A DNA stretch of 35,411 nt, taken from contig JAHFCH010000046.1 of the NCBI GenBank assembly GCA_023249635.1, positions 1-35,411 of the forward strand, written 5' to 3'. This document shows, piece after piece, positions 27,527-31,717 of the stretch. Position 1 is the stretch's first letter; every line of letters starts with the position of its first letter. The DNA comes from Fibrobacterota bacterium (GTDB lineage: Bacteria > Fibrobacterota > Fibrobacteria > UBA11236). The notes beneath the pieces are model-generated. The model searched no databases. It was given only the letters and a program-made list of their open reading frames with translations, and was not told where the DNA came from. Position numbers and translations under genes: made by a program.

Positions 27527-27671
27527 CCATACCGGCTTTCACGCGAATTCGGCCACATTAAGTTTGCGGTATTTCAGGATCCCTCCGTCAGGCATGCGGA
27601 TCCGAGGGTCGCGACCATGGGTATTCCCGCCCTTTTAGTTATTTTCCCCTCAGCTTCTTTCGGAGATTCGG

Positions 27672-29054
27672 ATGTCCTTTCAAGTGACATTGAACTCTCG
27701 CAACGTGCTCGTCCCGCTCTCGCTGGAAGATCACCAAGGCGAGCGGATGCTTGGCGCGTTATCGCGCCTGGATACGGCTACCGCCATGGTCATCCAGGTT
27801 TCCGCATCGGGAAGCTTCACCCAGGAATTCGTTCCCCTGCGCATCCGCCAGGAGACCACGCGCGGATATGCGGGCGGGGAATGGGAACTGTGGGTGCAGA
27901 AAGCCTCAGGCGATCTGCACGTATACTACCTCGGCATACCAGATGGCTTCTTCGCGACGGGATCTTCAGGGGAGCCACCTCGATCGCTTTCCATAGAAGT
28001 GGTCGGCACCTCGCCGCTCAGCGGCCGTGAAGAATTCACGGGCGGTGTGGACGTGACCTTGCAAGCGCAGGTCGAACCGCCTTTGATCCCCGGTTTCCTG
28101 GGGCTGGCCGAACGTTTCTTCCCCACATTGCTTCCGCATAATTTCATCGATCGCCATGTGGCCGCCGAGTTCGAATTCGGGGGCAAGCGCAGCCTGCTCC
28201 TGCTCGTTTCGCTGCAGATGGACGAGGCCGACCGCGTTCCGGTAAGCCTCGGCAAACATTGGGACGCCAAGAATTGGATTCAGGCCGTCGTTGAGAACCT
28301 TGCGCCGGTTCCCGCTTCCGATTCCGGGGAAAAGGCCGCTTGGTTCGCCATCCAGGGCGGTTGCTTCTACGGCCGCAACGGCAAGCTCTCCCATTGGTTC
28401 GGTGGCGGTATCGGTCTCGAAGAGAAGGGTTTCCGTCAGGCGGCAACGGAGCGGATCCGCACCCTTGGCGAGGGCGGGACCGGTGCGTGGATCTTTTGGC
28501 TGGAGCCGCAAGGCGCCGCCGATGGAGTTTACGAACTGATGCGGAATCCTGCTGCGGCAGCGCGCCGCCGCATCTCCATTCGCCATCCCATGTTGCAGCG
28601 CTTGCTGGCCCCGGCCGCCGCGCTCGCCAAAGCCGAGGCCGGCCAGCCCACCCTTGCCGAAGAATTACCTGTCGGGGAAGCGGTTGCCGCCCTCGCGCAG
28701 GTGGCCGGAATCCTTATCCGCCATCAGGATACCTTGCAACGCGCCTTGGCCGAACCCACGCATGCCGCGTGGTCCGAGCGCGCCAATCCCGCCGCCGCGG
28801 CCCTGCTGGCCCTGGAAGGCCGTCCCGAATCGCTGCCCGCTGCGCCGGGTTCCCAAGACGGATTGGCTTCGGACATACGCGATCTCTATGCCACACGCGG
28901 AGAAACCCTGCGCGCCCTGGAAGCCCTGTTCGACGAGACCTTCGGGTACTCGGCCTGGGACGCGGTGGGCAACCCCATGCGCGATTTGCTGAGCGGATTC
29001 CTTTCCGGGCAGGATGCGAAATCCAAATCCGCGGAGTCGCGCGCGTCCGCCTGA
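27672..29054 (+). CDS. Unrecognised 460-residue protein sharing an N-terminal domain with the next gene
   Basis: No family recognised. Residues 1-110 (MSFQVTLNSRNVLVPLSLED, QVSASGSFTQEFVPL, GGEWELWVQKASGDLHVYYL, GIPDGFF) form a beta-rich domain that aligns over its full length with the protein of 29068-29520. Residues about 125-300 form a second predominantly alpha/beta part (VAAEFEFGGKRSLLLLVSLQ, SHWFGGGIGLEEKGF); the rest (300-460) is helical, Ala/Leu/Arg-rich, with IRHPMLQRLLAPAAALAKAEA and a DLLSGFLSG ending. No signal peptide or membrane helix. Shine-Dalgarno GGAG precedes the ATG by 7 nt. It and the next gene are convergent with the kinase-like gene. Confidence 0.75.
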   Translation: MSFQVTLNSRNVLVPLSLEDHQGERMLGALSRLDTATAMVIQVSASGSFTQEFVPLRIRQETTRGYAGGEWELWVQKASGDLHVYYLGIPDGFFATGSSGEPPRSLSIEVVGTSPLSGREEFTGGVDVTLQAQVEPPLIPGFLGLAERFFPTLLPHNFIDRHVAAEFEFGGKRSLLLLVSLQMDEADRVPVSLGKHWDAKNWIQAVVENLAPVPASDSGEKAAWFAIQGGCFYGRNGKLSHWFGGGIGLEEKGFRQAATERIRTLGEGGTGAWIFWLEPQGAADGVYELMRNPAAAARRRISIRHPMLQRLLAPAAALAKAEAGQPTLAEELPVGEAVAALAQVAGILIRHQDTLQRALAEPTHAAWSERANPAAAALLALEGRPESLPAAPGSQDGLASDIRDLYATRGETLRALEALFDETFGYSAWDAVGNPMRDLLSGFLSGQDAKSKSAESRASA

Positions 29055-29067
29055 GGCGCGACGGACC

Positions 29068-29520
29068 ATGAGCTATATCGTTCTCGCCAACAGCACGCGG
29101 GTCATCCTCCCCCTGCGCACCCGCCTGGAAACCCCGGACCGCCTGCCCGTGCTCGGAGGCATCCTGGTCTCCCAGGCCAAAGGCTCCGGCCATTGCCAGC
29201 AATCCTACATCGAACTCGGCGAAGCCGGACTGCCGCGCCCTTTCCAGGGGGAACGTTGGTGTTACGAGTGGCGCAGCGAAGGCGAGGAGAACCTGGTCGC
29301 CTGTTGGCTCGGGTTCCCCAACGTGTTTTTTTCGGGAGGCATCGATCCCAACCTGCGCGTTTCCGTGGAGGCCCTGGGCCGTTTCGGATCGGGTCCGGGA
29401 ATGCTGCGATCGCTGTCGCGGATAGCGGTAACCGTAAAAGACGGCGGCCTGGTGCCGGCGGGCTCGAAACGGATGGCGTGGATGCCGGAAGATTCCCCGA
29501 AGCCGTTCCCCGCTTCCTGA
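29068..29520 (+). CDS. Unrecognised 150-residue protein, paralogous to the N-terminus of the preceding gene
   Basis: No family recognised. MSYIVLANSTRVILPLRTRL aligns with MSFQVTLNSRNVLVPLSLED; LGGILVSQAKGSGHCQQSYIEL with the QVSASGSFTQEFVPL region; GERWCYEWRSEGEENLVACW with GGEWELWVQKASGDLHVYYL; GFPNVFFSGG with GIPDGFFATG; and LRVSVEALG with LSIEVVG. This is a single-domain version of the same fold, with a C-terminal Lys/Pro tail. It starts 13 nt after the preceding stop and has GACGGACC upstream, a weak ribosome-binding site. No signal peptide. Confidence 0.72.
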   Translation: MSYIVLANSTRVILPLRTRLETPDRLPVLGGILVSQAKGSGHCQQSYIELGEAGLPRPFQGERWCYEWRSEGEENLVACWLGFPNVFFSGGIDPNLRVSVEALGRFGSGPGMLRSLSRIAVTVKDGGLVPAGSKRMAWMPEDSPKPFPAS

Positions 29521-29521
29521 C

Positions 29522-31717
29522 CTATTTCAGCTTATCCCGCAACTTCAACGCGAACCCGTTCTTAGGGTTGATCGCCAGGATCTTGTTCACCGCGTCTACC
29601 GCCTGATCGCGCATGCCCATGCTCTGGAAGGTGACGGCCATCCCGCCCAACGCGGCGATTTTCTGCTTCTCGCTGCCGCCGCTGGCCGCGACGGCCTTGG
29701 AGTAGGCCAGATTGGCTTCCGCGGTCTTACCGAGATCATTCAAGTCGTCGGCGGCTTTGAGGCGTTCGGCGGCGGAGTTGGGCCAGGTCCGCGTCTGCAC
29801 CATGGCCATCAGGCTGGCTTCGCGTTCCGGGGTAACATGGGCGTTACCCTGATAGGCGGCTTTCGGGGTTTTCGCGGTCGCAGCAGGGTTGGCAGCGGGT
29901 GTTTCCGGCGGCGACCCGGGGCGCGGAGGTTCCACTGGCATGGGGGGCTCGGAATAACCGGTCTCTTCCTTGGGCGCGGGGGTGGCATGGGCCACGACCT
30001 GCGGCGCCGGCGTGGTGGGGGCTTCCGGGGCTGCGACATCGGGGTAGGGCTGGCCGGCGGGAGCGGGCGTGGTCGCAGGGTGCGATTCCACGGCCGGTGG
30101 TGCCACCGGTTCCGGAGCCGGACCCGGATCCGCTGCTATCGGAGCGTCGGCGACGGGCGCCTCAGTCGTGCCTCCGGGACGCGCTTTCTCGGCGGCATTG
30201 CCGCGCAGGAAAATGAAGAGCCCGACCATGCCCAACAGCAGCACGAGCACGCCCGCGGAGATGAGCAGTATCCGCAGCTTGGCCTTGGCCGCCGCAGCCT
30301 TGCCGTCGGGGTTGTAGATACCGGTGCGGTTATCCCCGGCGCCTTGGAATCCGTAGGCGGTGAAGCCGGCGGGCTCGGAACCAGAGCCGGCCATTTCCAT
30401 CGGATCCTTTTCCAAGGAAGAAAGGCTTACGGGCATCGACTTCGCGACCGGAGGCGGTTCGGCGCGCGGCGTTGCCTTGGGCGAAGAGAATAACGGGGCT
30501 TGCGCGCCGAATACGGTCCCGGAATCTTCGAGTTCGCTGAGGGCTGATCGCGGAGGGGGAGGCGGCGTGGGCTCGCGGCGGACGGGTTCGGGCTTGGGCG
30601 CTTGGTAACCTGTCGGGCGGACCGGAGGCGCTCCGAACAAGGTATCGCCGCCGGGCTTGGGCGTCTCGTATTGCTCAGGCTCATGAAAGGACGGTGCCTT
30701 CACGGCCGGCTTGGGCGCGGGCGCGGCGTCGGCCGCCGGGAAGAAGTTGAAAAAGGAATCGTCGTCCTGGGCGGGTTTGGCTTCGGCGCCGAACAACGTC
30801 GGCTCTTTGGCGGGAGTGGCCTGGAAAGGATCAGCCTGCCGCGGGGGCGGAGGCGCGACCGGCTCCGGCGCGCGTGCGACGGTACCGCCGCGCGGGGCCT
30901 TCTCCTGTAGGCGCTTCATCGCGCCTTGCAGTTCCCACAATCCGTCCGCGAATGCGCCGGCTTCCTGGAAGCGTTCTTCCGGCTTGGGATGCATGGCTTT
31001 GGCCAGGAATGCCGCCACATCCCGATCCATCGATCGCGCTTCGTTGAGGGTCTGGGCGGGATTGGAAGAGGGGTGCTCGCCCTTGACGAGCCGGTACAGC
31101 AATCCGGCGATGGCGAATAGATCGGTGCTGGGGTAGCTCAGGAAACCGCCGCGGCCCGCCGCTTCCGGAGCGCGGTAACCCTGGTATTCGGGGCGCAAGG
31201 GTAGCGGATCCGGGGTCATCTCCGTGTTACCCAGGGCGCGCGGATCCCAATCGCAGAGCTTGGCCACCAGCGGGCCCACCATCACGTTGCCGGGATGGAT
31301 GTTCAGGTGGCGGGTGCGCTCATGCAGCAGGGTCAGCCCTTGGCATGATTGCCATAACAGTTCCATCCCGCGGGCGTAGTAGTTGCCTTCGCCGCGGTTC
31401 TTGCGCACCCATTCCTCGAAGGACATGCCTTCGGCGAAGGCGCGGGCCACGAAAACCATCCCCATCTCTTCCTGCACGTCTATGCAACCGCACAAGTTGT
31501 CGTGGTCGACCTCGGTCATCACTCCGGCTTTGAGGAAGAAGTCGGGCGCGGCCAACAACTTGGCCGAGATTTCCTGCCGATAGATCTTGATGCAGAGCTT
31601 ACCTGCATTCCCGTTGGCGATGAAGGTGCGGGCCGCGGGGGATTCGCCGGCGAGGCCCTCCACGACGTACTTGTTCGCGATGACTTCGCCTTCGGCATAT
31701 TGGGGGTTTGCGGCCAT
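29522..31717 (-). CDS. Kinase-fold protein with altered catalytic motifs, TM segment and TPR-like tail
   Basis: 731 residues from the ATG at 31717; the longer frame to 32293 is antisense to the divergent gene. Residues 15-260 are a protein-kinase-like domain: VAIK-type Lys44 (LCIKIYR), HLNIHPGN in place of HRDxKPxN (Asp to Asn139), DWD156-158 in place of DFG, YRAPEA activation segment end, and DLFAIAGLLYRLVKGEHP. The glycine loop (GLAGESPAAR) also lacks its GxGxxG pattern. Then a Pro-rich linker, a transmembrane helix (LRILLISAGVLVLLLGMVGL, about 500), a Pro/Ala-rich periplasmic stretch and a C-terminal TPR-like helical pair (AEANLAYSKAVAAS, QAVDAVNKILAINPKNGFAL). Likely a pseudokinase scaffold in the envelope; activity unproven either way. 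TATACT 7 nt before ATG. Confidence 0.82.
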   Translation of the reverse strand: MAANPQYAEGEVIANKYVVEGLAGESPAARTFIANGNAGKLCIKIYRQEISAKLLAAPDFFLKAGVMTEVDHDNLCGCIDVQEEMGMVFVARAFAEGMSFEEWVRKNRGEGNYYARGMELLWQSCQGLTLLHERTRHLNIHPGNVMVGPLVAKLCDWDPRALGNTEMTPDPLPLRPEYQGYRAPEAAGRGGFLSYPSTDLFAIAGLLYRLVKGEHPSSNPAQTLNEARSMDRDVAAFLAKAMHPKPEERFQEAGAFADGLWELQGAMKRLQEKAPRGGTVARAPEPVAPPPPRQADPFQATPAKEPTLFGAEAKPAQDDDSFFNFFPAADAAPAPKPAVKAPSFHEPEQYETPKPGGDTLFGAPPVRPTGYQAPKPEPVRREPTPPPPPRSALSELEDSGTVFGAQAPLFSSPKATPRAEPPPVAKSMPVSLSSLEKDPMEMAGSGSEPAGFTAYGFQGAGDNRTGIYNPDGKAAAAKAKLRILLISAGVLVLLLGMVGLFIFLRGNAAEKARPGGTTEAPVADAPIAADPGPAPEPVAPPAVESHPATTPAPAGQPYPDVAAPEAPTTPAPQVVAHATPAPKEETGYSEPPMPVEPPRPGSPPETPAANPAATAKTPKAAYQGNAHVTPEREASLMAMVQTRTWPNSAAERLKAADDLNDLGKTAEANLAYSKAVAASGGSEKQKIAALGGMAVTFQSMGMRDQAVDAVNKILAINPKNGFALKLRDKLK

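Follow-up and report, generated by a model that had tools for sequence, protein, structure and literature searches.

Two adjacent genes encode proteins with a common N-terminal domain

To elucidate what a pair of adjacent genes in a Fibrobacterota bacterium encodes, and whether its two products belong together, we analysed the window, i.e. the whole 35,411-nucleotide stretch of DNA, which is an entire contig (G000:C283) of a 6.75-Mb genome. The first gene (27672..29054, + strand) is present as an open reading frame and encodes P0001, the large protein of the pair, with 460 residues. The second (29068..29520, + strand) encodes P0002, a small one-domain protein of 150 residues, in which the domain shared with P0001 (residues ~1–106) is followed by a variable tail. 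The mechanically called reading frame of P0002 is longer (168 residues, start at 29014); six aligned orthologues instead favour the ATG at 29068, which is GTG in one relative. The gap between the two genes is 13 bp in the window and 2–14 bp across the six genomes that carry them, a spacing that suggests coupled translation. By hydropathy only, neither a signal peptide nor a membrane helix is present in P0001 or P0002, and both proteins look cytosolic.

The earlier note had aligned P0002 end to end, by eye, with the beginning of P0001. Residues 1–112 of P0001 and 1–104 of P0002 share 28% identity (BLASTP, E=3e-7). The profile–profile alignment (hhalign), which had been set beforehand as the refuting test, is significant: the six-sequence profiles of P0001 and P0002 align over columns 1–98 with a probability of 94% and E=1.4e-7, scoring 53 versus 13.5 for the reversed-profile control and 22.9 for the best of 60 column-shuffled profiles. 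Additionally, none of 500 residue shuffles reaches the pairwise score in any of the six genomes. All 12 domain sequences, six from each protein, agree at 16 positions (S2, V5, N8, S9, V12, P15, R25, V40, G47, Q51, G68, W71, G88, P90, F94, and G112 in P0001 numbering), which fall inside the motifs noted earlier and beyond them. As judged from these alignments, the N-terminal domains of P0001 and P0002 are homologous. The end-to-end description holds for the domain and fails for the 150-residue protein as a whole, since the homologous stretch covers ~100–112 residues and the last ~40 residues of P0002 form a more variable tail (62% versus 84% mean identity). The P0002 profile finds no similarity in the middle region of P0001, and the large protein therefore has a single copy of the shared domain, joined to other regions, and does not repeat it.

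Searches of Pfam, NCBIfam, PHROGs, PADLOC, and PDB sequences returned no credible match for either protein. The best library matches involve single family members at E 0.017 to 0.74 (NNH1, GCSF, RcnB, and others), none of which covers the family or recurs across its members. A PilZ-like motif was considered and rejected by eye, as the RxxxR and D/NxSxxG signature is missing from the alignment. A literature search gave nothing useful on this genus. The claim of novelty thus stands at the level of sequence: the shared domain is new there, and none of the libraries searched appears to describe the family. Orphan pairs of this paralogous-domain type are common.

The pair is conserved and syntenic within one genus

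The pair is found in all six genomes of the genus, with the two genes adjacent, on the same strand and in the same order, and with exactly one copy of each gene per genome. Orthologues from the five congeneric genomes are 54–69% (P0001) and 70–82% (P0002) identical to the window proteins. In comparisons with the window, third codon positions vary ~2–4 times more than second positions, and the ratio is higher in closer pairs; by this codon pattern, both genes are real and under amino-acid constraint in all six genomes. The flanking order, namely UDG, FAD reductase, zwf, methyltransferase, the pair, a kinase-like gene, a TPR protein and, after further genes, gyrA, is the same in the six species as far as the contigs reach, with local insertions.

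Outside the genus, profiles of P0001 and of the shared domain detected no other credible copy in 168 Fibrobacterota genomes, among them four from the sister genus within this family and one genome from the same order. A scan of GTDB genomes by exact peptide patterns, which reach close relatives only, gave RYN_349 as the sole match; this metagenome-assembled Fibrobacteres bacterium is the nearest named relative. Collections of phages, plasmids, and viral contigs yielded no relatives of the pair. Weak matches of the A1/A2 profiles within the phylum (G090, G068, G002:C13, and G005:C60) were treated as chance. Specifically, the G090 match lies in a frame that differs from the reading frame called there, and the G068 match runs through four stop codons. 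Those in G002 and G005 are short stretches of 43–49 residues (E 0.14–0.6) of a large membrane/coiled protein, and the 12-sequence domain profile did not retrieve them. As far as searched, the pair appears restricted to a single Fibrobacterota genus.

The best explanation of this distribution is that the pair belongs to the core of the genus and is inherited vertically, as opposed to being mobile or serving in conflict. A small gene beside a large one, both without known relatives, could recall a toxin–immunity or other conflict pair; we regard this as most improbable, because the genes are single-copy, syntenic, and conserved in all six species, unlike typical conflict genes, because neither PADLOC, Pfam, and PHROGs nor the phage and plasmid collections gave a match, and because the homology of P0002 to the N-terminus of P0001 would be unusual for an immunity protein.

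P0001 joins the shared domain to a conserved middle region and a C-terminal part predicted to be helical

P0001 was described in the earlier note as multi-domain, which is borne out by its conservation blocks (residues 1–136, 137–282, 333–370, and 395–451) with weakly conserved linkers between them. The N-terminal block (residues 1–136; 27672..28079, + strand) contains the shared domain, whose homology to P0002 is clear over ~1–112 and which is predicted to be beta-rich. The middle region (residues 137–282; 28080..28517, + strand) shows the strongest conservation within P0001, at 70% mean pairwise identity; it carries the motifs LLPHNFI, DRxPVSLxKHW, GGCFYGRN...HWFG, and GAWxFWL, and parts of it reach a pLDDT of 70–87 in the AlphaFold model. 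The C-terminal region (residues 333–451; 28668..29024, + strand) is delimited by conservation and by predicted helices at 334–350, 395–423, and 435–451, and shows 62% identity in the helices versus 28% in the intervening linker.

AlphaFold predictions of the full-length proteins have mean pLDDT values of 54 for P0001 and 43 for P0002, and the shared domain itself lies at ~35–55 in both. Strands occupy corresponding places in the two separate, low-confidence predictions, which agrees with the beta-rich character proposed before, at a prediction confidence too low to settle it. This correspondence fits a common beta-rich fold in the models without identifying which one.

All listed structural matches of the P0001 model fall on residues 1–136. 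Viral jelly rolls match this low-confidence model with Z up to 7.8, and those of picornavirus capsids rank above the C-terminal carbohydrate-binding module of AlgX (PDB 4knc, 7ula), also a jelly roll. The AlgX module is weakly matched by both N-domain models (P0001: Z 6.5, rmsd 3.5, 99 residues aligned; P0002: Z 3.1, rmsd 3.7, 76 residues aligned; domain pLDDT ~35–55 in each case). Values of Z < 8 are common for unmatched models, and both kinds of match lie within that range; since the mean pLDDT values are only 43 and 54, we take them as leads only. Given that the AlgX module recurs among the matches of both models, the shared domain might be a carbohydrate-binding-like jelly roll lacking an export signal, which would sense or bind glycans or glycan precursors in the cytosol. 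We consider such a function highly unlikely: the domain is modelled at low pLDDT, the viral jelly rolls outrank AlgX for P0001, and no carbohydrate-binding (CBM) family matches either protein in the libraries, Pfam among them. AlgX takes part in the modification and secretion of alginate and acts outside the cytosol, whereas P0001 and P0002 look cytosolic and, by hydropathy, have no hydrophobic segment at the N-terminus.

Two conserved elements precede the pair

Upstream of the pair, a conserved non-coding element lies at 27555..27576 (+ strand), reading ACATTAAGTTTGCGGTATTTCA in the window and CCACTTTAAGTTTGCGGAATTTCA in the relatives, with GTTTGCG and TTTCA invariant in all six genomes. A second one, AGYTATTTTC (27637..27646, + strand), ends ~25 bases before the start codon, and its AG.TATTTT is likewise invariant in 6/6; the spacing between the two varies among genomes. 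We infer that the first element is a promoter or operator, and the second is possibly a core-promoter element. Together, the two suggest, from their conservation, that the pair has its own promoter. A scan with the sigma-70 consensus found no promoter at these elements, which match none of the promoter types scanned for. A shared regulon was rejected, as the other exact copies of CTTTAAGTTTGCG in the genomes adjoin unrelated genes, genome by genome. The leader shows no RNA structure better than shuffles (z 0.70) and matches no Rfam family.

Neighbouring machinery and the pair

Downstream, a kinase-like gene outside the pair (29522..31717, - strand; Pfam Pkinase, E=1e-9) converges on it. Its product contains one membrane helix, a low-complexity region before the helix, and a TPR-like C-terminus. 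The catalytic motifs are altered in all six genomes (HRD to HLN, HLD, or HLS; DFG to DWD or DPD), and the protein is possibly a pseudokinase or an atypical kinase, as judged from these motifs. The stop codons of the pair and of the kinase-like gene stand 1 bp apart (29518–29524); in the relatives the arrangement ranges from an 8 bp overlap to gaps of tens of bp. Because the genes converge so closely, the 3' ends of the two transcripts may overlap.

A type VI secretion system (T6SS) cluster shares the contig with the pair in three genomes, where tssC lies ~40–45 kb away, and in G003 tssK is 30 kb from the pair. Its genes include tssK, a large tssM-like reading frame, tssA, tssB, tssC, hcp, tssE, and tssF; names other than tssC were assigned by eye. 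In the syntenic G003 genome, the cluster lies 4–5 kb past the gene block that matches the left end of the window, and in the genome of the window it is located on contig C309, which probably adjoins the contig analysed here. A T6SS link had been prompted by the TssB-like look, by eye, of the P0001 middle region and was rejected, being unsupported by profiles or distribution. No literature on Fibrobacterota with type VI secretion was found.

These neighbours raise the possibility that the pair belongs, as an accessory or a regulator, to nearby machinery, either the membrane-anchored kinase-like protein, whose gene adjoins the pair in all six species, or the T6SS, whose single cluster lies on the contig of the pair in three genomes. 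We judge this quite unlikely. A kinase-like orthologue in the sister-family genome G010 adjoins a MiaB-like gene (by eye) and has no pair alongside; the kinase-like gene can therefore do without it. T6SS occurs widely across the phylum, in 50 of 168 genomes, but the pair only in the six genomes of one genus. Moreover, the pair stands outside the tss cluster, 30–45 kb off, and neither protein matches Tss families in Pfam or NCBIfam; the pair profiles find no match among the T6SS-cluster reading frames, and the upstream elements are absent from the T6SS stretches examined. Adjacency to either neighbour is little informative, because the neighbourhood is syntenic anyway.

Discussion

The earlier note had offered two roles for the pair, receptor/effector or subunit pair. 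The former finds no support, since hydropathy reveals no signal peptide and no membrane helix in either protein. The latter is favoured by the operon organisation and by the unbroken joint occurrence of the genes: a fixed gene order with gaps of 2–14 bp in six species is as expected for co-expressed subunits. We therefore prefer, tentatively and with somewhat less than even confidence, a cytosolic heteromeric complex of two operon-encoded paralogues joined through their related beta-rich domains. A two-gene operon would produce two cytosolic paralogues, one short and one long, whose related domains would bind each other to form a pseudo-symmetric heterodimer or a mixed oligomer. The small subunit may cap, limit, or regulate assembly, while the middle and C-terminal regions of P0001 would carry an activity or a partner-binding surface; its invariant motifs, such as GGCFYGRN...HWFG, would mark the corresponding site in the middle region. 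Tandem operons of paralogous-domain subunits are a general kind, in which a one-domain and a multi-domain protein are encoded adjacently and co-inherited, as are P0001 and P0002. The present sequence family is unrelated to the known families of such subunits, and for P0001 and P0002 an interaction is presumed.

What counts against a complex is the far divergence of the domain copies (~28% identity, with just 16 invariant aligned positions) and a model confidence too low to reveal an interface (pLDDT 54 and 43). Tandem duplicates often diverge toward separate action, and an old gene or domain duplication whose products are now independent, for instance binding two different ligands and sharing only expression through the operon, is the next reading to weigh, although we find it rather unlikely. 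It would account for copies that differ so much from each other and yet are each well conserved among species. Additionally, P0002 evolves more slowly than P0001 (~82% against ~70% identity versus the nearer relatives), which indicates that the constraints on the two proteins differ. Against independence, the genes are never separated in the six genomes, and their 2–14 bp gap suggests coupled translation.

For the heteromeric complex that we prefer, a more far-reaching version can be put forward, in which a genus-specific domain family, present as one short and one long copy, would scaffold a hetero-oligomeric machine of the cytosol whose middle domain has a new enzymatic or binding function; this extension is speculative and, in our estimation, unlikely. 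By itself the pair opens no known question. As a lineage-specific gene pair it is a clean case with clear bounds, core to its genus and conserved, yet invisible to the family libraries used, and structural work on Fibrobacterota would find in it a fair target.
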